From positions 36,115,366 to 36,179,365 of the forward strand of contig CAIIXF020000001.1 of the NCBI GenBank assembly GCA_903813345.2: a stretch of DNA of 64,000 nucleotides, in the 5' to 3' direction. This DNA is from Owenia fusiformis (lineage: Eukaryota > Annelida > Polychaeta > Sabellida > Oweniidae). The position numbers and the translations under genes are program-made. Below are positions 18,775 through 62,640 of this stretch, in pieces (within the stretch, counting starts at the first letter, position 1; each line of letters begins with the position of its first letter). Under the pieces are notes generated by a model. That model was not told the origin of the DNA. It made no database searches and was given only the letters and a program-made list of their open reading frames with translations.

Positions 18775-20880
18775 CGTCCGTCCGTCCGTCTGTCTGTCAA
18801 CAATATTGGCACGTTTTAAACCTCTGTCGATAGGATTCCTGTTTTAAGTTATTTCTGTTCAACATCAATACAGAAAACCCCCTATGACTCCTGGTTCAAA
18901 AGCTCGCCTATTTTCAAAATGGCCGTCACTTTTGTCTCGCGAAATTCACTTTTAGCCCATTTCCTAGCTAACCTCTGTCGATAGGATTCCTGTTTTAAGT
19001 TATTTCTGTTCAACATCAATACAGAAAACCCCCCTATGACTCCTGGTTCAAAAGCTCACCTATTTTCAAAATGGCCGCCACTTTTGTCTCGCGAAATTCA
19101 CTTTTGGCCCATTTCCTAGCTTTACAAATAATTTCAGGTGTCCTACATTGTAAAAATCCATGTCAATGTAAAGATTAGATATATGTAATAATTTTGTTAC
19201 AAAAAATCAGCGAAAAATTGTATCCATTTTTTTATTTTCAGCCATTTTAGTTAACATTGATTTGTCTATCTGACTCGCGAAATCCACTTTCTGTCAATAA
19301 CAGTGGCACGTTTTAAAACCTCTGTCGATAGGATTCCTGTTTTAAGTTATTTCTGTTCAACATGAATTCAGAAAACTCCCCTATGACTCCTGGTTCAAAA
19401 GCTCGCCTATTTTCAAAATGGCCGCCATTTTTGTCTCGCGAAATTCACTTTTGACCCATTTCCTAGCTTTACATATTATTTCAAGTGTCCTACATTGTAG
19501 AAATCCATTGCAAAGTAAAGAGTAGATGTATGAAATAATTTTGTTACGAAAAATCAGCGAAAAATTATATCCATTTATTTATTTTCAGCCATTTTAGTTA
19601 ACATTGATTTGTCCATCTGTCTCGCAAAATTCACTTTTGGACCATTTACCTTAAACCCTCTGTCGATAGGATTCCCATTTTAAGTTATTTTTGTTCAACA
19701 TCAATACAAAAAACTCTCCTATGACTCTTGGTTCAAAAGCTCGGCTATTTTCAAAATGGCCGTCACTTTTGTCTCGCGAAATTCACTTTTGACCCATTTC
19801 CTAGCTTTACAAATAATTTCAGGTGTCCTACATTGTAAAAATCCATGTCAATGTAAAGGGTACATATATGAAATAATTTTGTTACAAAAAATCAGCGAAA
19901 AATTGTATCCATTTTTTTATTTTCAGCCATTTTAGTTAACATTGATTTGTCTATCTGATTCGCGAAATCCACTTTCTGTGGCACGTTTTAAAACCTCTGT
20001 TGATAGGATTCCTGTTTTAAGTTATTTCTGTTCAACATCAATTCAGAAAACTCCCCTTTGACTCCTGGTTCAAAAGCTCGCCTATTTTCAAAATGGCCAC
20101 CATTTTTGTCTCGCGAAATTCACTTTTGACCCATTTCCTAGCTTTACAAATAATTTCAAGTGTCCTACATTGTAAAAATCCATGTCAATGTAAAGAGTAG
20201 ATGTATGAAATAATTTTGTTACGAAAAATTAGCGAAAAATTATATCCATTTATTTATTTTCAGCCATTTTAGTTAACATTGATTTGTCCATCTGTCTCGC
20301 GAAATTCACTTTTTGCCCATTTCCTAGCTTTACAAATAATTTCAGCTGTCCTGCATTGTAAAAAGCCATGTCACTGTAAAAGGTAGTTGTATGAAATAAT
20401 TTTGTTACAAAAAATTGGCAAAATATTATATCCGTTTTTTTTATTTTCAGCCATTTTAGTTAACATTGATTTGTCCATCTGTCTCGCGAAATCCTCTTTT
20501 GTACCATTTGCTTAAAACCTCTGTCGATAGGATTCCAGTTTTAAGTTATTTTTGTTCAACATCAATACAAAAACTCCCCTATGACTCCTGGTTCAAAAGC
20601 TTGCCTGATTTCAAAATGGTCGCCATTTTTGTCTCGCGAAATTCAATTTTGGCCCATTTCCTAGCTTTACAAATAATTTCAGGTGTCTTGCATTGCAAAA
20701 AGCCATGTCACTGTAAAGAGTAGTTGTATGAAATAATTTTGTTACAAATTATTGGCAAAAAATTATATCCGTTTTTTTTCAGCCATTTTAATTGACTGAG
20801 AGACAGATGGCTTGAAATAATTTTGTAACAAAAAATCAGCAAAAAATGTGACCATGTGAGCCCAGTACCCACGGTACTAA
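18707..20880 (+). mobile_element. Repeat element opening GCTCAC, built of ~340-bp tandem units
   Basis: The segment opens with a small hairpin, GCTCACATGGTGAGC, followed by a TCCGTC/TCTGTC microsatellite (18740-18800). It closes with GTGACCATGTGAGCCC and a second hairpin, AGTACCCACGGTACT. ATTTTTA flanks both sides (18700-18706 and 20880-20886), a possible duplication of the target. The interior is a series of related units starting CCTCTGTCGATAGGATTCC at 18821, 18972, 19319, 19657, 19994 and 20518. No open reading frame with a known motif is present. Elements with this opening are abundant in mollusc genomes in my memory; the class is uncertain. Confidence 0.7.
18821..20850 (+). repeat. Tandem array of ~340-bp units
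   Basis: Each full unit has the order CTCTGTCGATAGGATTCC, TTATTTCTGTTCAACAT, GACTCCTGGTTCAAAAGCTC, TTTTCAAAATGGCCGCC, TTTGTCTCGCGAAATTCAC, TTTACAAATAATTTCAGGTG, and TTCAGCCATTTTAGTTAAC. The first unit is cut to 151 bases and a partial unit stands near 20300-20500. Adjacent units are some 90 % alike. Confidence 0.88.
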
Positions 20881-22005: not shown

Positions 22006-22510
22006 GACCTAACCCTAACCCCAACAACATCTCTAACCCTAACTATAGCCTAACCCTAAGCCAGAGCCTAACTCTAACCCTTAACCTGAACACCAACACT
22101 ACCCCTAACCCTAACTATAGCCTAACCCTAACCCTAAGCCAGAGCCTAACCCTAACCCCTAACCCTAACCCCAACACTATTCCTAACCCTAACTACAGCC
22201 TAACCCTAAGCCAGAGTCTAACCCTAACCCCTTACCCCAACATTACCCCTAACCCTAACTATAGCCTAACCCTAAGCCAGAGCCTAACCCTAACCCCTAA
22301 CTCTAACCTCAACACTACCCCTAACCCTAACTATAGCCTAACCCTAAGCTAGAGCCTAAGCCTAACCCCAACACTACCCCTAACCCTAACTATAGCCTTA
22401 CCCTAAGCCAGGGCCTAACCCTAGCCCCAACACTACCCTTAGCCCTAACTAAAGCCTTACCCTAAGCCCAAGCCTAACCCTAACCCCTAATCCTAACCTT
22501 GACTTAACCC
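22006..22510 (+). repeat. Interstitial telomere-like array (CCCTAA-type) with higher-order structure
   Basis: About 500 bases are made of CCTAACCCTAAC-like words, interrupted by regularly recurring variants: AACTATAGCC, AAGCCAGAGCC and CCAACACTACC. The AACTATAGCC word recurs near 22041, 22113, 22191 (variant), 22257, 22331 and 22390, with a further variant near 22447, so the higher-order unit is about 60-80 bases. The array is bounded by non-telomeric element sequence on both sides, so it is not a chromosome end. Confidence 0.9.
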
Positions 22511-22747
22511 TAAGTAATCAAATACAGTGTTCAGAATGATCATTTATCAATTGGGAGACCTATAATTGGAAATGTGTGTTGTTTTGGTTTTCTTTGATGA
22601 ATATTCCCCAGGGTAGAACAACAAATGGAGAAAATGACCAATTTTTCTGTATCCTCCATACTAAATATTTCTCTGTAAACATTCAGAAGCAATAATAATG
22701 ATTACAATTAGTTTATGTAATTGATAACACATGAATTGTTCTATCAT

Positions 22748-42489: not shown

Positions 42490-44134
42490 CACTGTTGCTC
42501 ATAAATATGGAATATTTTATAGATTCGAACTGTTCGATGGAATTTCTACAAAATTATAACATTTTGATGAAAATTTGTAATGTGTTCTCATTCCCTCATC
42601 AGTTTTGCATATAAAACTGATTGGTATGAAAAGTTAAAACATTTATGGTTGATTAAACTTGTATTAACTCAGGTGACCCCATGACATCATGATATTGGTA
42701 ACTTGAAAGAGGTGTCCAAATCTTAGTTGTAATCATTGTGCACATTTTATAAACATTTAATTTAGAGTTTTAAGGGTTTTTAGAAGGCATGCCCCATAGA
42801 ATGAGAGAAAAAGAGCATGGGAGGTCATAGGGATGGCGCTCTCTGGCATGAAACAAACTGCCATTGCCAGGACCCTAGGGGTGTTTCAGGAACAGTCTCT
42901 AAAATTTTGCAGTGGTACCAAAGGCACTGGAATATGACTCCAGGTCACAGTAATAGTAGCCCTAGAGAGACAAATGTAAGAAAAGACCACCAACAGCTGC
43001 ATTTATGTCATCAAAATTGCTTTAAGTCAACCAGTAGTCTACGAGATGTATGGCTGTCTCACCTCAAAACCCGTGTTCCAGAGCTATAGACAACCAGTGA
43101 TTTCTTTATAACGGATGCAAGGCCACGAGACCTTTAAAGAGACAACAGCTGACTGATCATAACAAAGAAAGGTGCCTTCAATGGGCTGGAAAGCACCAAA
43201 ACGTTGGACCTAATCTTTGGTGTCATATCACAGCATGTGAAGAAATAAGATTTGTCCTCCACAAAGTTGATAATTGTGTTAGTTTCTGTCGTAGACCAGG
43301 GGAAAGAGACAATAAGGACACTTACTGATGTGGCAGTCCATGAAGGCAACCCTATTTATGTTTGGAGCAGTATAACAGAGGTTTTTTGGAGCAGCACTGC
43401 CGAAATTGCACCCCCTTGGTGATTCCCAAACATAATTTCAGAGTAAATTGCTCTTTTGGACCTCCATTTAGTACCACATGTAAACAGAGTGTTTTGGGGC
43501 AACATTCAACTGCAGAATGATCATGCTGTTGCATATGCTAGTGGCATCGTGTTGGATTACATCAGGGCAGGCAATGTGGCCCAGCTACCATGGGCACAAA
43601 AGTCAGCCAATCAGGCTAATGCAGAGCAAATGTGGGACGATCTTGGTAATGAGATTCGTGACTTGGACCCCCACCTCAAAATTTAGACACGTTACGCACT
43701 GCCCAGATTGAGGAATGGGGCCTTATTTCACTTTGAAAGGTCAATGTTTCATCCAATGCTGGTCCCGTAGGGTTGATGCTCTGATTGCAGCACAAAGAGG
43801 ACATAACACATATTAGTACGATAATTGGATAGAGGACACTTCAATCTTCATGACCAGATGATTATTTTGTTTATTCTGTTTTACAGGACAATTTGGATCG
43901 GGGTATTTTGAAAATGCCAAAATTCTTTGCGTACCCCTGTTTAAGTAACAGTAATTTTCTAAACTTAAATGTTAGTATTTTTCTCTAAAAAAATGTTGAT
44001 TTGTAGCTGAAATATGTGGTTATGATTTGCCTAGAAAATAAATGTCTGAGCCAACTCCAAATAAATGTTCTCTTACTCCAAACTTTTAATTCTGAGCTGC
44101 CAAATTTAATATTCCATATTTATGAGCAACAGTG
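42490..44134 (+). mobile_element. Dead Tc1-type DNA transposon
   Basis: The element of 1645 bases has 27-bp terminal inverted repeats (CACTGTTGCTCATAAATATG at the left, its complement at the right) and a TA duplication on both sides, as Tc1/mariner elements leave. Transposase remains are on the plus strand in several frames: a helix-turn-helix piece (IGMALSGMKQTAIARTLGV near 42832, then GTVSKILQWYQ after a frame change), a middle part with RCLQWAGKHQN and RRPGERD, and a C-terminal part (43456-43686) with LPWAQKS and EQMWDDLGNEI. The usual Ser-Pro-Asp-Leu-Asn-Pro-Ile-Glu box has become SANQANAE. Frame changes and stops show it is non-functional. It sits just before the first coding exon of the NCS gene. 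Confidence 0.93.
42817..43686 (+). pseudogene. Tc1-type transposase remnant
   Basis: This is the broken coding region of the transposon at 42490-44134. An open frame at 42817-43089 covers the end of the helix-turn-helix domain; another at 43456-43686 covers the end of the DDE catalytic domain, with a QNDHA motif at the second catalytic aspartate. The region of the first aspartate reads TACEEIRF where active relatives have a Ser-Asp-Glu-type motif, so a catalytic residue appears lost. Confidence 0.85.
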
Positions 44135-44187: not shown

Positions 44188-44215
44188 GATTACAGAATAG
44201 CCAAACACCAACACA
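44188..44215 (+). other. 5' UTR part of the first coding exon of the NCS gene
   Basis: The acceptor TTTGTGTTTGCAG ends at 44187. The 28 bases that follow are non-coding and lead into ACACAATGG, a good metazoan start context with A at -3 and G at +4. The 3' end of a Tc1-type transposon lies only 53 bases before the splice site, so branch point and pyrimidine tract must fit in 44135-44187 or lie within transposon sequence. Confidence 0.7.
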
Positions 44216-44323
44216 ATGGGAGGTGGAGGAAGTAAGAGTCTTCCCAAGGAGGACTTGGAATTTCTTATGAGCAACACAAACTTCACAAAACGCCAGATTA
44301 AACAATGGTTTAAAGGATTCATG
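44216..44323 (+). CDS. NCS-family calcium sensor, coding exon 1 (residues 1-36)
   Basis: This exon encodes the first 36 residues of a neuronal calcium sensor protein. These are small EF-hand proteins that, in known members, bind membranes by an N-terminal myristoyl group and regulate channels, receptors or cyclases in neurons. The start MGGGGSK fits the N-myristoylation pattern (Gly2, Ser6). It is followed by the family's N-terminal helix, with KEDLEFL, NTNFT and a Trp-Phe-Lys-Gly-Phe stretch that leads into EF1. The ATG is chosen for its context, the Gly2 signal and the family's usual length. The exon ends in phase 0 at ATG|GTAAGT. The helix is most like visinin, neurocalcin and nematode NCS-2; exact orthology cannot be decided by eye. 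Confidence 0.93.
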
Positions 44324-45604: not shown

Positions 45605-45877
45605 CGTGATTGTCCTTCTGGCCAGTTGACTAGGAAAAAGTTCCTAGAGGTTTATTCAGGATTTTTCCCAGATGGAAATGCGGAAAAGTTCTGCGAGCAT
45701 GTGTTCCGGACATTTGATGCAGATAACAGTGGGAAAATTGATTTTAAAGAATTCTTATTGGCAATTAATATCACTTCTGCGGGAAAACCAGAGGAAAAAC
45801 TAGAATGGGCATTCCAAATGTATGACATCAATGGAGATGGTACTATAGAGAAGAATGAGATGGTTGAAATAATAGCG
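45605..45877 (+). CDS. NCS-family calcium sensor, coding exon 2 (residues 37-127; EF1 to EF3)
   Basis: This 91-codon exon is phase 0 at both ends, with acceptor TTTCTTTTTTTCTAG and donor GCG|GTAAGT. It begins RDCPSGQL, the degenerate EF1 of all NCS proteins, where Cys39-Pro40 spoils calcium binding. [10 protein letters not shown] and HVFRTFD follow. EF2 has a complete 12-residue loop, [12 protein letters not shown], at about residues 74-85. A linker, [14 protein letters not shown], of visinin/recoverin style comes next. EF3 has a complete loop, [12 protein letters not shown], at about residues 110-121. All metal-ligand positions of EF2 and EF3 look intact. This exon is common to both isoforms. 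Reading through its donor would add 25 unrelated residues before a stop, which I consider intronic. Confidence 0.95.
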
Positions 45878-47767
45878 GTAAGTTGGGAATCAGCCTCTGT
45901 GGAGAGGAGGGTTCACTGGAGGCAGGGTACACTGTATCTGGCAAACAGCTAACATTATCTTTCAGTTGTAATATTAAAGCATAATAAATAATATTAATAA
46001 TATTGTAGTTTATTGATGGTAATGGGAGTAAGCACCTTAACTTATTTAACAGTCATTGATGTTAAAAAATAATCTTTCAGTAAATCTGTACCATGGATAA
46101 TGTTTTCCCCTCTCTTATTCAAATTTTACTGTTCAAAATTTGAACCTGTTTTGTGTTCATCTCAACTCTTCCCACTCTAAGCATTTACCAAATGAGTAAC
46201 ATTCCTCATCTGAATTCAAGTACTTTTAGTGTATAATATACCTCATTGCCCACATGTCCTACATTGTATTTCATCCACAACTCCCTTTTTGTACACTATA
46301 AATAAGTCATATTTTACAGCATGTTTATTTGGTACAGACTTGTATGAAGATTGATTTTTTGTTAACTACCAATGACGCAAACACATAGGATAAAGTTCTA
46401 ATACATGTATACATCATCATTCAGGACAGACTTGTTCAGACAAACATCTTGTTTCAAGAGTATCACCTTTATATAACTCCCCCTTGTGAAATTGGAATAT
46501 TGATTTTAATTATTTAAAAGATAAATTATAAGATCCATAAATCCAGAGCACATGTACTTAGAAATCCCATAAAGTACTTTAATTAATATCGAAAAGTTGA
46601 AAACAGTCAAAAGCCATGTCAAAATTTCATTTTCTGCAGTGCAAAAGGACGATTCTCGGTTTGGAGAACGAAGTTCATCATTCTAAATGAGCATTATCCC
46701 TGCTTCGGACAAATTTGATTTTTTTACATAATATATATTTGAATGTCCTCTTTTGAATAGTCATAATTTAATTTGGGTAATATTTCTAGATTTTTCGCAA
46801 AAAGATATTAGCGCAGTACACTGATAAACATCTTTCCCCAAATCGAGACTTGTATTTATATTGAATCGGTCTATTTGAGCATTATCCCTGCTTCAGACCA
46901 ATTTGTTATCTTTACATCTTGTAGATTTAAATGTCCCATTTTGAATATTCATAGTTTAATTTGGGTAATATTTCTAATTTTTTCATGAAAAAAATTATTA
47001 GCCCAGGAGACTGTTCTCCAAACCGAGAATCGTCCTTTAAATTCATTATTGGTTTTTCCAGGCATAAGATTGAGATATTACACCAATATACACAATAGTA
47101 TTAATAAAATGAAAAAATGATTGTTTCGTAAATTAGTACCTTAGTGTTGATATACTAGTTGAACTTTGAAATCTCAAAAACAAAGTTGATGCATTCGATA
47201 ATGAAGGATTGTTTCAGTTTCTAAAAGTCTAAATTTTGTAGAACAGTTTACTCTTTTTAGTCATTATCAGTTTCCCTTGAATAATTACAGATTTGTTATT
47301 ACTATATCTACCAATCGCCAATCACTATGATCTACATGTACCTGTATCCAGTTGTCTTACCACTAAATAGTATTCTTGAAACAAGAGTTTGTTAATCTAT
47401 CTAGACTATTTCCCAAAAACCTTTAAACATAATTAAGTATTCCTTCACAAGTAGAATCAGAATATGATATTCAATCATTACATTACAATGTATTTAACAG
47501 AATTCACTGCAGATACTTTCTATGTACATGGTATCATGTTGTGCTTTACATGATCACTGTAAAGATGATGCTTTTTGCCATCATTTTGCTCAAGGCTAAA
47601 ACTCTTGGCTGATGCTCAGTTGTTTTACTGATGCTCAATTGAATGCATTGTTTTATTTATTGTTGGGTGATTATTCTTATTTCTACTTGTGTTTTAACTC
47701 TCACTTTGACTCTTCAGTTATAGTCTGCTTAGCTTCACAACATTTCTGTACTTTTTCTAACTTTTAG
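45878..47767 (+). other. NCS intron between exon 2 and alternative exon A
   Basis: GT-AG intron of 1890 bases, extended to 48352 when exon B is used. It is AT-rich. The only structure seen is the inverted-repeat element at 46644-47038; the rest looks unique and non-coding. Confidence 0.85.
46644..47038. mobile_element. Inverted-repeat element (MITE-like) with an internal duplication, in the NCS intron
   Basis: The ends are a perfect 26-bp inverted repeat, starting AAAGGACGATTCTCGG (46644-46669) and its complement at 47013-47038. Inside, a block beginning TGAGCATTATCCCTGCTTC occurs twice, near 46688 and 46876 (period about 187 bases), followed in both by TTTAATTTGGGTAATATTTC. No coding capacity is seen. 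A target-site duplication is not clear, so the superfamily is unknown. Confidence 0.75.
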
Positions 47768-47974
47768 GCAATATATAACATGGTAGGCTCAAGTAACCCA
47801 GCCAACTCACCAACAGACACACCACAAGCACGTACAGAGGAAGTTTTTGATAAAATGGACGAAAATAAAGATGGAGTATTATCTAAGAACGAATTTGTAA
47901 AAGGTTGCTTGGCAGATCGCTTCCTGTATCAAATGCTAACTGCAGATCAATCAGCAGCAATGGAGGGGGAATAA
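47768..47974 (+). CDS. NCS-family calcium sensor, alternative last exon A (EF4, residues 128-195)
   Basis: This terminal exon encodes 68 residues and TAA after the acceptor CTTTTTCTAACTTTTAG. It starts AIYNMVG, the family's usual start of the EF3-EF4 linker, continues with TPQARTEEVFDKM, and has a full EF4 loop DENKDGVLSKNE at residues 158-169. It ends FLYQMLTADQSAAMEGE. Joined to exon 2 in phase 0 it completes a 195-residue protein, normal for the family. Loop position 7 is Val and position 9 is Ser, unlike exon B (Thr, Asp). No AATAAA lies between its stop and exon B; only variants such as TATAAA (near 48115) occur, so an A-type mRNA may run on to the polyadenylation site after exon B. Confidence 0.93.
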   Translation, partial: AIYNMVGSSNPANSPTDTPQARTEEVFDKMDENKDGVLSKNEFVKGCLADRFLYQMLTADQSAAMEGE

Positions 47975-48352
47975 TGTTAGCTAATCCATATGACTTCTTA
48001 CACTAGAGACATGACCAGGTGACGGTCATAACACACGTTTCTTATGTCACACATTGGAATATACTCATCATTTGCTTTGTAAATAATCATACTAACTTAT
48101 GCACAATTGGATATATAAAATTAGTCAATCGTCTCAAAGCAGCATATACTATTTGTATAAAAGTGTTCAAAATGTTTTTTGTTTTATTTGTTTATTTGCT
48201 ATAAAGTGTCTTTGCGATATCTGCATTCCTTTCGATGGCATGCCAGCAGTTTCTTTGGATATATACTAAACTGTATTGAGTATTATTATCAGAGCTTGCT
48301 ACCTGGCTCCTAGTTTTTGATGACGCATTCTGTACAAGTGTGTGTTTTGTAG
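47975..48352 (+). other. 3' UTR of isoform A / intron upstream of exon B
   Basis: The stretch between the two last exons is AT-rich and non-coding. It contains one Pumilio-type element, TGTAAATA, at 48078-48085, a T-rich run near 48175-48200, and no AATAAA. In B-type transcripts it is part of the intron; in A-type transcripts it is 3' UTR. Confidence 0.6.
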
Positions 48353-48565
48353 GCCATCTATAACATGGTCAATAACGCTGGTGGCGAGGTGCCCAATGAG
48401 ACCCCGGAAGCACGAACGAATGAGATTTTTAGTAAAATGGATGAGAATGGAGATGGCACCCTCGACAGACAGGAGTTCATTCAAGGATGTATGCAAGATA
48501 AGTTCCTCTACCAGATGTTGACAGCTGACAAGTCTGGAGACCAGCAACAAAATGTAGAAGGATAA
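48353..48565 (+). CDS. NCS-family calcium sensor, alternative last exon B (EF4, residues 128-197)
   Basis: This is a tandem duplicate of exon A, 378 bases after it. The acceptor is GTGTGTGTTTTGTAG and the exon encodes 70 residues and TAA. It begins with the same AIYNMV, has TPEARTNEIFSKM, an intact EF4 loop DENGDGTLDRQE at residues 157-168, and the shared FLYQMLTAD followed by its own tail, KSGDQQQNVEG. The two exons share a little over half of their residues. The loop core and the end helix are nearly the same; the linker and tail differ. Both accept exon 2 in phase 0 and both carry a stop, so they are mutually exclusive protein ends. Exon A has the richer pyrimidine tract, so B may need regulated skipping of A. 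Confidence 0.93.
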   Translation, partial: AIYNMVNNAGGEVPNETPEARTNEIFSKMDENGDGTLDRQEFIQGCMQDKFLYQMLTADKSGDQQQNVEG

Positions 48566-48607
48566 CAGTTTGCATTGAATGCTATGGAACTAAATATGCA
48601 TGGTAGT

Positions 48608-48686
48608 ATGGTACAAGTTAAACACAGAAAATGCAAGGTGTTTTAAAGATGATATTTACCACCATTTTGTGTATAACTTGTACCAT
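48608..48686 (+). repeat. 79-base stem-loop in the 3' UTR
   Basis: The left arm begins ATGGTACAAGTTA and the right arm ends TAACTTGTACCAT. The 13-bp terminal stem continues past an A-A mismatch with 5 bp, then a two-base bulge and 5 more pairs, about 23 pairs around a loop of roughly 28 bases. The size fits a microRNA precursor or a very small palindromic element; with no relatives in the window I cannot choose. Confidence 0.55.
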
Positions 48687-49799
48687 TTGTTTATCTTACC
48701 ATGATGCATAAACTGATCTTGTATATATTGGCATTTTGCTATTTTAATACTGTTCTATTGTTATACACAAAGGTATATCTGTACATGTAGAGTCAATATA
48801 GGTAGTTAGGAATTGAAATTGAAATATTAATGTATATATATTAATTATGATACAACGTGTGATTGCATGTTGTATATAACATTGAATTTTCCACCAACTA
48901 CATATTTCAATATATACAACGTTTAAACTTACAAATTATTTTGATTTGTCATCTAAGATCAGACCTGTTTACCATTAGATATATCTTAACTAGAAGAATA
49001 CATGTATTATAGAAGTGCTTGTATGTGTTTCATGATACAGTTGATAAATATATAGCAACACTGTATTTTAAACGGCCAGAGTACTTTTGTAATCACAGAG
49101 TACTTTTAAGAGGTTTTACTGTAGTGTTATTCATACAGTTATTATTTTCTAAAAATTTTAAGTAATGGTTAGAATATTCATAACTGTACAATTGTATGAG
49201 ACTGAGCTATTTGTCACTGCCAAAATATGTCGTAATAATTCAGTAAACTAGTTGATAATGCATTAGACGGGCTTAATTTTAACAGAGCTTACATTTGACA
49301 AAATATATGTATATTTCTTGACCCATATATTGAGCTTTTGCCTAATACCTGCATAGTGATTATTGTTTATGTCAATAAGTATAACTGTACAAAATATATG
49401 CATATATGTATCTCCAAATTGAATCTTCACAAATGAAAATGGAAGTTTTTATAACATCCATTCGGGCAAGGAAAGGAATACTTTCATGGCAATATGATTG
49501 TCATCGCATTTGTCATGTTATTCAAATATTTTGTACCTGTGTTCCATCTTTACCATATGTCTTTCTAAGTTTGTAATTAGATAGTGTTTTCTCCATACAA
49601 TTTTTTTTGTATCTGTGTTTTGTTTTATGTGAAAATACAATGATACTCAAGAGAGGAGACCTATATTCAAATTCACAATTGTAATATAAGAACAAGATCT
49701 TGAAATATTGAATAGAGTTTGATACTTTGGAATAGATTAATACATAAACTTGTACTTATGTTTTATCAATTTACTGTATTTCTATTCTGTTATCTTAAC

Positions 49800-49855
49800 A
49801 ATAAATAAGATTATAAGTGTACACATTGTTCTTTTCACAACTGAGTTTAAATAAA
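49800..49855 (+). terminator. Polyadenylation signals of the NCS gene
   Basis: AATAAA occurs twice, at 49800 and 49850, the first canonical copies found after the exon B stop, with T-rich sequence between and after them. Another AATAAA near 50141 is less likely to be the main site. Confidence 0.5.
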
Positions 49856-50384
49856 TGATCATCAATGAATATGAACTGTTTCATTTTGTTGCAAAAACAA
49901 ACCCATATACTTATGCATATACACTATGTGCATGATCAATAAAAGGGGGACTAAGAATGTAAAACCAAAAAGTAAGGTAAGGAAATGAATATGAGGTAAC
50001 AATTGCTCTAAGTGACATCGAACATGATAAATAAACATAATGTCACCACTGCCTGAATCTAGGTTGAAATGTTGCATATATCCGCTTACCTATTTTTCTC
50101 TATATCATCATGACAAGTTACAAACTGCCAAACTTGGCACAAATAAAATAGTTGATGTTGATGTTTTATTTGACATTTCGAATTTTTGGTAAATGTCTAG
50201 TATTGTAAGACTGGATATCATGCTGTGCTTTCATTAATCAATATAGTTCTCCTTTGGGAATGACCCATGGCATCATGAAGCATCCTGACAACATAGAAAG
50301 ACAGTTAAAACTAATATTGGGTCCAGGTAACTGTGTTTGTATGACATGGCTGTAATGCTTTATGCAATGCGGAAATGTCAGCAT

Positions 50385-54431: not shown

Positions 54432-55136
54432 CACTGGTTTTCATGATGTTGCAAACAACTGGTTTTCATGATGTTAGAACCAACTAGTTTTCATGATGTT
54501 GCAAACAACTGGTTTTCATCATGATAGAACCAACTAGTTTTCATGATGTTGCACACAACTGGTTTTCACGATGTTAGAACCAACTAGTTTTCATGATGTT
54601 GCACACAACTGATTTTCATGATGTTAGAACCAACTAGTTTTCATGATGTTGCAAACAACTGGTTTTCATGATGTTAGAACCAACTAGTTTTCATGATGTT
54701 GCACACAACTGGTTTTCATGATGTTAGAACCAACTAGTTTTCATGATGTTGCACACAACTGGTTTTCATGATGTTGCACACAACTGGTTTTCATGATGTT
54801 GCATACAACTGATTTTCATGATGTTAGAACCAACTAGTTTTCATTATGTTGCACACAACTGGTTTTCATGATGTTGCACACAACTGGTTTTCATGATGTT
54901 GCACACAACTGGTTTTCATGATGTTGCACACAACTGGTTTTCATGATGTTGCACACAACTGGTTTTCATGATGTTACACACAACTGGTTTTCATGATGTT
55001 GCACACAACTGGTTTTCATGATGTTGCACACAACTGGTTTTCATGATGTTACACACAACTGGTTTTCATGATGTTGCACACAACTGGTTTTCATGATGTT
55101 GCACACAACTGGTTATCATGATGTTGCACACAACTC
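54432..55136 (+). repeat. 25-bp minisatellite with a 50-bp higher-order section
   Basis: About 28 copies of AACTGGTTTTCATGATGTTG followed by CACAC. Up to about 54.8 kb two unit types alternate (GTTAGAACC with ACTAGTTTTC, and GTTGCACAC with ACTGGTTTTC), giving a 50-bp period. After that nearly all units are of the second type. Confidence 0.95.
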
Positions 55137-59165: not shown

Positions 59166-61136
59166 TATTTCTATGAGTGATTTGATAAAATATGTTTTGT
59201 TTGGTTCATCTTGCTACTCCAGGGAGTTGCTGTTTTACTAGTTGGCTTTTTGGAAATCATTCCAGAAGAATATGTCAGAGCAAAGAAAATTTACAAATAT
59301 AATCCTCTATTAGGTGCATTAGGTGTCATTGCACATTGACATTTATTTTGAAGGAGGTTGCATAGCGAGGAGGATCACGTTTATTATGTTGAGCATTTCT
59401 TTTTTGTCTTAAAATGTCAGTTTATGATTTGAACATCAGTTCTGTCTTACATATTGAGTTCCAAGAAGAATTTGCAATTGATTCACAGTCACTTATTCCA
59501 TTTTTATTATTTTTAATGTCACTATGACACTATGAGGTTGACTTGTATAAATGAATTTCCCCGTGTTTTAGGTTTGGGATTGTCATGATAATGGTGTTAG
59601 TAGGGAGGGGGTATCAGGCATTGTTTCTCTTTTTGTGATATTTCAGATTGTTTTCATTTTGATAGGTTGTGTTCTCCTGTGTTTTTCTCCTGTGTTTTGT
59701 GTTTAATGTCTCTCCCTCTTTGGTCTCATGCATACATACTTTTTCACGAAAGACCTTGGCAACTGGAGTGACAAAAATCTAAAGAAATTTTTAAATAATT
59801 CGATAAAATTGGGAGATAATAGTTTTAATTCAGTTATATCGCCATCAATTTAGCCGTTTCTGTGAGTATTTCTATTGATATCCATGCATGTGTGTGTCAA
59901 TTAATCTACTATAACATTCTGCTATTTAGTCAAACTGAGTCCATTTTTAAGGAGGAAATTCATGTTTCACCCTATTATCGCCCATATATTTATCTCCAGG
60001 GATTTTTAAATTTGAGCCATCTTCTACAGGAGAATTTGGGAGACACACTGTGAGTTAAATAGAGAGAATATGTATTTACTGATGGAGTTCATATATCTAA
60101 TGATCAAGTCATCAAAGTGAAATTATGCACCATGTAATTGCTTCAAAAAATATGACAATGACATAGATCAATAAAACGGAATACATCCAATTATTGTATT
60201 ATGTTACATGTTTATAAAAGCTTTTCAATAATTAATGCAATTGTTATCTTGGGACATTTTGATGCTTTATTAGCAATTCCATTTTCATTTTATTATTAGT
60301 TCACATATCGAATCTATGGAATGGCCTACTTATATGTTTATCTGTCTATCCATCCTTTTGTCCATCCATCCATCCGTCTTTCCGTCCATCTGTCTGTCCG
60401 TCCATCCGTCCTTCTGTCTGTCAACAATATTCAGACAAATACAACTGACTAAACTAAAGTTCATTTCATTTTAAGGGTATCCATGTCTATATCTAGCAAC
60501 TTACAAATTTGACCTACTTTTGCAAATACTTGTAATTTTTATGAAGGAAGTTTCTTTTGTGAGTTCCTTATAAGGTCATTTTGCAGTAGCACCTCAGCAA
60601 CATAACAGGCAATATCAATCAGTTTATTGTGATCTTTGCTGTACCAAGGGATATGGTTTTGAACATTTGCGCAGTCTAAAACAATTACAAGATGAAGAAC
60701 CCATTACAACCTGCTTACAAACATTTGCATATTACAATCTCATAGGATTAGAATGTCATGTCAACTGAAATACTGTGAAAATGCCAAGCAAAGGTGCATA
60801 ACCAGGAGTCTGTTTGCTATACTTTGACTATGACATAATGATTTACATGCATGGTTATAACAATGAATTTAGGAATTTTTAGAATGTTCTTGTAATCAAT
60901 TCATGATCTGTAATGATTAATAACCTCTCAATTTGATCTATTTGAAGTTCATCTATTCTTTTGCTCACTTATCAGAATGAATTGGTATTGTATAGAATGT
61001 ATACCATTAAGATGTTAGTTGATTCCTGATTATTTGCTAGGCAACAGTGATTTAAGACTATATTGTTTCTCAGATTACTTTGTTTTATTGAGCTAATCAT
61101 GGGTAATAGATTTTTGCAAAACAGTTATGTTTTGAA
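59166..61136. other. No gene recognised
   Basis: Apart from the TCCATCC run at 60345, only AT-rich single-copy-looking sequence. Confidence 0.55.
60345..60430 (+). repeat. CCATCCGTCTGTCTGT microsatellite-like start of a GCTCAC-family repeat
   Basis: A run of TCCATCC, TCCGTC and TCTGTC words ends in TCTGTCAACAATATT, the same wording that follows the microsatellite of the element at 18.7 kb (TCTGTCAACAATATTGG). The sequence after it soon becomes unrelated, so this is probably a truncated copy. Confidence 0.55.
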
Positions 61137-61950
61137 ACGACAAAGAGTAATATCTGAAATGACAAAGAGCAATATCTGAAACTACAAAGAGCAATACTTT
61201 GAACTACAAAAAGCTATGTCTGAAACTACAAACAGCAATATCTGAAACTAAGAAGAGCAATATTTGAAATAACAAGACCAATATCTGAAACTACAAAAAG
61301 CAATATCTGAAACTACAAACAGCAATATCTGAAACTACAAAAAGCAATATCTGAAAATACAAACAGCAATATCTGAAACTACAAACAGCAATGTCTGAAA
61401 CTACAAACAGCAATATCTGAAACTACAAAAAGCAATATCTGAAACTACAAACAGCAATGTCTGAAACTACAAAGAGCAATATCTGTAACTACAAAAAGCA
61501 ATATCTGAAACTACAAACAGCAATATCTGAAACTACAAAAAGCAATATCTGAAAATACAAACAGCAATATCTGAAACTACAAACAGCAATATCTGAAACT
61601 ACAAAAAGCAATATCTGAAAATACAAACAGCAATATCTGAAACTGCAAACAGCAATGTCTGAAACTACAAACAGCAATATCTGAAACTACAAAAAGCAAT
61701 ATCTGAAACTACAAACAGCAATGTCTGAAACTACAAAGAGCAATATCTGTAACTACAAAAAGCAATATCTGAAACTACAAAAAGCAATATCTGAAAATAC
61801 AAACAGCAATATCTGAAACTACAAACAGCAATGTCTGAAACTACAAAGAGCAATATCTGTAACTACAAAAAGCAATATCTGAAACTACAAACAGCAATAT
61901 CTGAAAATACAAACAGCAATATCTGAAACTACAAACAGCAATATCTGAAC
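61137..61950 (+). repeat. 22-bp minisatellite, left block
   Basis: About 37 copies of AAACTACAAACAGCAATATCTG, with AAAAGC/ACAGC/AGAGC and ATATC/ATGTC variants that themselves recur in blocks. Because the unit is 22 bases, an open frame of 22-residue period arises on the minus strand; it is not a gene. Confidence 0.95.
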
Positions 61951-62353
61951 TAGTTCAAACGCAGCCAGTGGCCAAAAATAATAAATTCAGAGAGGAATGA
62001 TGCTTTGGAAGGAAGAGAAAAAATTTCTTAGTTTTGTTTCAAAATATGAGTCAGAATGCGCTGATTTTGATGAAAAAGTCGAAAATTGTTCATGATTCTT
62101 GCAAGCCCATGTTGAGAAATATCTTGAAGAAATACAACTTACTAAAAGCCTTGAAATCAAAGCTTCAAAATGAGCCTCAAAAATGCTCATATACAATGCA
62201 CCAATTTTGATGAAAAAATCAAAATTTTCTGGACCCCCTCTGGACTCGCTTTGCTCTGACCGTTCGGAAAAATTGTGGCTAATTATATAAGAATAGGCTA
62301 CTAATTAAAAAAAATATTAGCCATTTTGGCTAACATTGATTTTTCTTAATGCA
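61951..62353. other. Unrelated insertion that splits the 22-bp minisatellite
   Basis: About 400 bases of unrelated sequence, including two GATTTTGATGAAAAA-type words 150 bases apart and a GC-richer word, CTGGACTCGCTTTGCTCTGA. Near its right end TTAGCCATTTTGGCTAACAT forms a small hairpin and resembles the end of the ~340-bp unit. Array units restart right after GCAG. Probably an inserted element; no clear terminal repeats. Confidence 0.6.
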
Positions 62354-62640
62354 GAAACAGCAATATCTGAAACTACAAAAAGTAATATCTGAAACTACAA
62401 ACAGCAATGTCTGAAACTACAAACAGCAATATCTGAAAGTACAAACAGCAATGTTTGAAACTACAAACAGCAATATCTGAAAATGCAATATCTGGAAACA
62501 ACCAGCAATATCTGGAAACAACCAGCAATGTCTGAAACTAAAAAGCAATTTCTAGGCTATATCTAAAATTAAATTATCGAACAATATGTATAAATAGAGC
62601 AATAAACCACAAAGTGCAATATCTTAAAGTGCAATATCAG
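62354..62640 (+). repeat. 22-bp minisatellite, right block
   Basis: The same unit as at 61137-61950 resumes for about eight copies, then decays through ACCAGCAATATCTGGAAACA and AAAGTGCAATATC variants. Confidence 0.88.

Follow-up and report, generated by a model that had tools for sequence, protein, structure and literature searches.

A swap of the C-terminus by duplicated exons is an already known class of event, and 77 of 236 human tandem duplicated exon events alter the C-terminus (PMC9741552). In the alpha-actinins ACTN1 and ACTN4, tandem duplicated exons swap an EF-hand segment (PMC9177970, PMC9741552), and in tropomyosin and CAPZB homologous last coding exons lead to alternative C-termini (PMC9741552; for CAPZB, PMC3228551). 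Within the neuronal calcium sensor (NCS) family, single KChIP genes (KCNIP1-4) yield several sensors by means of alternative exons, which join variable N-termini to a common C-terminal core (PMC3973911). KCNIP4 is also among the 236 human duplicated-exon events, its position within the gene not being stated in the part of the source that was available (PMC9741552). According to a review, splice variants of NCS proteins are likely to alter function, in ways that the field has still to establish (PMC3271974).

Here, a 64,000-nucleotide stretch of Owenia fusiformis DNA (the window) was analysed, within which an NCS gene that probably corresponds to CG7646 of the fly carries two neighbouring last exons (A and B). 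From the sequence we judge it quite likely that the last coding exon was tandem-duplicated long ago and that both copies were kept as alternative terminal exons, and a single gene can probably give rise to two sensors that share a front end and differ in their tails. As in the alpha-actinins (PMC9177970, PMC9741552), the exchanged segment contains an EF-hand; unlike those large cytoskeletal proteins, in which one version only binds calcium, both EF4 loops look complete here. The position of the duplicated exons at the end of the coding sequence is that of tropomyosin and CAPZB, which in contrast are not calcium sensors and exchange a part other than an EF-hand. The arrangement is the reverse of that in the KChIPs, with a common N-terminus and a variable C-terminal block.

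In the titles, abstract openings and passages covered by the literature search, which mostly did not extend to subscription journals, no NCS gene was described as having a duplicated last exon, and this silence is a weak sign of novelty. Amphioxus and ascidian proteins with exchanged EF-hand exons are further leads, and the same literature search found no paper that supports them.

Identity of the gene and its relatives in the genome

On the basis of its predicted protein the gene is a member of the NCS family. The top PDB match was neurocalcin delta (E 2.1e-62 for form A, which ends in exon A, and 1.1e-60 for form B, which ends in exon B), followed by hippocalcin-like 1 and hippocalcin, and both predicted forms showed the full-length similarity that marks the family. 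Pfam EF-hand matches were also present. EF1 carries RDCPSGQL in exon 2, and EF2, EF3 and both EF4 loops look canonical. An EF1 spoiled by CPxG is what we take to be an NCS-family mark, with which the CPSG of this gene fits, and the predicted N-terminus MGGGGSK is by consensus of the myristoylation type, presumably a second mark of the family. The calcium-binding ligand residues are present in the predicted protein, a putative calcium binder.

Relatives were searched for in the 498.3 Mb assembly. Form B as a query gave 13 matches and exon A gave four, of which two were A and B themselves and the others were single exons of a divergent gene on C5 (the C5 gene) and of a neurocalcin-like gene. By genome searches and tblastn of the window plus nine further stretches, five other NCS-like genes were distinguished: the neurocalcin-like gene, the C5 gene, two KChIP-like genes (also C5) and a frequenin-like gene (C6); other than for the neurocalcin-like gene, these names come from peptides read by eye. 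On C4 form B had a further weak match (24% identity), which was left out of the tally of NCS genes. In none of the five other genes did tblastn within the fetched stretches, or the search of the whole genome with exon A, reveal a second EF4 exon, and no third exon of the A/B type was found in the window at E values up to 10 (tblastn).

The exons of the neurocalcin-like gene (C1:36184066-36190202) lie past the right end of the window, some 20 kb downstream of the gene and in the same orientation, and EF1 to EF3 of that gene are contained in one exon. It could be ruled out that exon B belongs to this downstream gene, since the neurocalcin-like gene owns a separate last exon. In Drosophila, CG7646 is an NCS gene that adjoins Neurocalcin (PMC6415939). 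The gene described here likewise neighbours a neurocalcin-like gene, and because of this neighbourhood it is probably the counterpart of CG7646. Searches for relatives from other species in viral contigs (74-residue query) and in genome contigs (150-residue query), neither of which is an animal-genome collection, returned none. COX1 was also looked for, with no match.

Gene structure

All features of the gene are on the forward strand. The first coding exon, together with a short 5' UTR, was placed at 44188..44323 (AG before 44188, GTAAGT after 44323), with a provisional 5' boundary; the ATG is at 44216, which makes 44216-44323 the coding part. The second coding exon (45605..45877) encodes EF1 with its CPSG, EF2 and EF3, as supported by the sequence and by PDB and Pfam matches, and at its donor, after 45877, GCG is followed directly by GTAAGT. 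Exon A (47768..47974) and exon B (48353..48565), both delimited by sequence, tblastn and codon comparison, each encode an EF3-EF4 linker, an EF4 loop (DENKDGVLSKNE in A, DENGDGTLDRQE in B), a C-terminus and a stop. Each is preceded by AG, starts with AIYNMV, is in phase 0 with exon 2 and is terminated by TAA. Their lengths including the stop are 207 bp and 213 bp, and the predicted spliced proteins have 195 residues (form A) and 197 residues (form B).

The 378 bases between A and B (47975..48352), with TATAAA at 48114, 48156 and 48200, would serve as an intron of form B and as 3' UTR of form A. The stretch 48566..49960, with AATAAA at 49800, 49850 and 49938 and a provisional end, is probably the 3' UTR of form B and may also belong to that of form A. 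Downstream of B, neither reading of the sequence nor tblastn revealed additional coding sequence of this gene, and a later non-coding exon is possible.

Within this putative 3' UTR, 43 bases past the stop of exon B, begins a hairpin (48608-48686; -29 kcal/mol, z -4.0, with 0 of 200 shuffles equally stable). It had no Rfam match, is present as a single copy in the genome, and is possibly a small-RNA precursor or a regulatory stem.

The window holds 383 stop-to-stop frames, of which the 32 richest in G+C were listed. Intron 2 contains an element of about 400 bp with perfect 26-nt inverted ends (46644-47038), for which 40 of 1713 genome candidates were scored; near-full-length matches, its own copy aside, were 96-97% identical, which marks the element as a MITE-like repeat that is young and present in many copies. 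An interspersed repeat of about 1 kb (42750-43760) lies immediately upstream of the gene, with 40 of 194 candidates scored at 91-100% identity, its own copy included. Its broken frames look Tc1/mariner-like by eye, and no Pfam match over the cut-off was obtained for the three pieces searched (best HTH_23, E 0.075, in one piece). Large tandem arrays were observed at 18819-20509 (units of about 150-350 bp), 22008-22513 (CCTAAC-rich, chromosome-internal), 54433-55135 (25-bp unit) and 61133-62553 (22-bp unit).

Comparison of the two last exons

Exons A and B are neighbouring, homologous, similar in length and identical in phase, as tandem duplicated exons are. In a tblastn search of ten sequences they matched at 59.7% over 62 residues (E 1e-22). 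Identical residues numbered 37 of 61 aligned, or 39 of 66 when the tails were included. A sequence-only reading of this DNA had proposed tandem-duplicated last exons behind one N-terminus, and the pair is indeed intact, homologous and phase-compatible; the exon coordinates and the 378-base distance that it gave were exact, and phase 0, AIYNMV and the stops were confirmed.

Similarity is unevenly distributed along the two exons. From the TP before EF4 through the serine after FLYQMLTAD, 30 of 45 residues are common to A and B, and in the EF3-EF4 linkers only 1 of 10 aligned residues is; the tails also differ. This agrees with the earlier description of divergent linkers and last residues around a conserved FLYQMLTAD. 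The EF4 loops had been said to differ at positions 7 and 9, which they do, but positions 4, 10 and 11 differ as well, and the total is five of twelve. At ligand 9, exon A encodes Ser and exon B Asp, and the other ligand positions are kept. Outside the exons, the best match between the flanks of A and those of B, leaving aside the spacer that flanks both, reached only E 0.038, and the similarity is therefore confined to the exons.

At the nucleotide level, 13 of the 14 fourfold-degenerate sites common to A and B differ, and the 37 common residues are encoded by a different codon in 25 cases and by the same codon in 12. Over 66 codons, differences at codon positions 1, 2 and 3 numbered 24, 16 and 44. 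The dN between the exons was 0.364, with dS not estimable by NG86, and third-position G+C was lower in A (0.30) than in B (0.51).

Age and coding constraint

Because 37 of 61 residues are identical, nearly all of the fourfold sites differ and the rates are similar, A and B look like old coding exons that are both under constraint. Relative rates were compared by counting changes unique to A or to B, which gave 4 and 5, 3 and 3, and 3 and 4 with the C5 gene, neurocalcin and PDB neurocalcin delta, respectively, as outgroups. A recent duplicate or an assembly duplicate was rejected on two grounds: synonymous sites have come close to saturation, and exon A with the spacer matches itself alone in the genome.

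It is conceivable that a single exon is in use and that the other is a relic of the past duplication, a reading with which the low pyrimidine count of acceptor B would agree. Against it, both frames are open and have complete EF4 loops despite near-saturated synonymous sites, and the two exons show equal relative rates. In a substitution-only decay simulation (5000 runs per case), the frame was left open in about 12%, 3.6-3.9% and 1.6% of runs at 0.25, 0.5 and 1.0 changes per site; an open frame together with the EF loop was left in 0.6%, 0-0.04% and 0%. Given the substitution pattern, the relative rates and this simulation, a decayed second exon is unlikely, and we regard the relic reading as very improbable.

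The order of events was addressed by trees. A nine-row tree left the fork of A, B and C5 open. In a seven-row tree under a simpler model A and B were sisters, with support of 83/87, which is weak and comes from a tree built after the nine-row tree had been seen. Neither of the two alternative groupings, C5 gene plus A and C5 gene plus B, was rejected (p-AU 0.153 and 0.147), and the duplication may be older or younger than the divergence from the C5 gene, either order being compatible with the trees. A phase-0 intron just before AIY is common to the gene described here, the neurocalcin-like gene and the C5 gene; the frequenin-like gene and both KChIP-like genes have no intron at this point, and one exon reads through it. 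In the first three genes a single terminal exon encodes linker, EF4 and C-terminus, so that its duplication would carry along a whole functional block.

Choice between the last exons

The proposed explanation is that the last coding exon was copied in tandem long ago, that A and B were both retained, and that exon 2 would be spliced either to A, the nearer exon and the one whose acceptor is richer in pyrimidines, or past A to B. Pyrimidines at -20 to -5 numbered 12 of 16 for acceptor A and 9 of 16 for acceptor B. The two other EF4 exons that follow an AIY-type intron had 12 and 8 of 16, and four other acceptors had 11 to 15. Acceptor B also has an AG 14 bases upstream, the use of which would shift the frame. 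These two traits of acceptor B, the weak support for A and B as sisters and the unequal third-position G+C speak against the proposed explanation, though the count of 8 at another EF4 exon shows that a low pyrimidine number is not peculiar to B.

The exons had been called mutually exclusive, a term that does not hold in its strict sense. Exons of the strictly mutually exclusive kind lie inside the gene, and PMC3228551 sets homologous exons at its end apart from them because their choice may run via a poly(A) site or via competition between acceptors. A and B do not form an internal cluster with flanking exons; both carry stops, and they are better described as alternative terminal exons.

Neither AATAAA nor ATTAAA occurs between A and B, and the first AATAAA is at 49800. 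For this reason form A would end either at one of the weak TATAAA sites or at the poly(A) site of B, in which latter case it would carry unspliced B in its 3' UTR and the choice would lie between 3' splice sites. Under either ending no splice junction would be expected after the stop of A. That the choice is made by a poly(A) site after A (TATAAA), and not by competition of 3' splice sites within one shared last exon, has in our estimation a little less than an even chance: three TATAAA lie between the exons and the use of homologous terminal exons is frequently tied to poly(A) sites (PMC3228551), but the absence of AATAAA and ATTAAA from the spacer speaks against it. UGCAUG was not enriched in the window (36 observed against 49.7 expected), and no splicing regulator is therefore proposed.

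Functional implications of the exchange

Whichever way alternative terminal exons A and B are selected, the two proteins would have the N-terminal anchor, EF2 and EF3 in common and would differ in linker, EF4 (Ser or Asp at ligand 9) and tail. The suggested tie of the exchanged block to target binding finds direct support in NCS-1, in which the EF3-EF4 linker and the C-terminal region shape target recognition (PMC4513130). In Frq2, removal of the C-terminal helix increased binding of Ric8a (PMC4728190). The swap of exon A for exon B exchanges both of the NCS-1 target-binding regions, the linker and the C-terminus, as well as EF4. The two proteins would thus differ in the targets they choose and, with less certainty, in how tightly they bind calcium. 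Under the acid-pair idea, Asp at EF4 ligand 9 favours tighter calcium binding than Ser. By this idea the EF4 of form B (Asp 9) would bind calcium more tightly than that of form A (Ser 9).

Rapid variation of linker and tail is general in the NCS family, and consequently the contrast between A and B alone is no proof of changed function. Both exons might be expressed with an unregulated choice and the two proteins be equivalent, in keeping with the conservation of FLYQMLTAD and of all EF4 ligand positions except 9 and with the lack of UGCAUG enrichment. We think this unlikely, given that the linkers have 1 of 10 residues in common and the tails differ, in regions tied to target binding in NCS-1 (PMC4513130), and given that both exons have been retained long.

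A more novel reading is that cells use a regulated switch of the C-terminal exon to choose between two sensors, in which one membrane anchor is combined with different target-binding linkers, EF4 loops and tails, and that annelids, and possibly further spiralians, have conserved this switch; this we put forward tentatively, as possible though on balance doubtful. KChIP-type isoforms vary at the opposite, N-terminal end of the protein (PMC3973911). An exchange of linker, EF4 and tail with the rest identical would offer a ready-made pair with which to test NCS specificity, and if the regulated switch is true, the gene would represent a natural chimera test that linker, EF4 and tail define that specificity.
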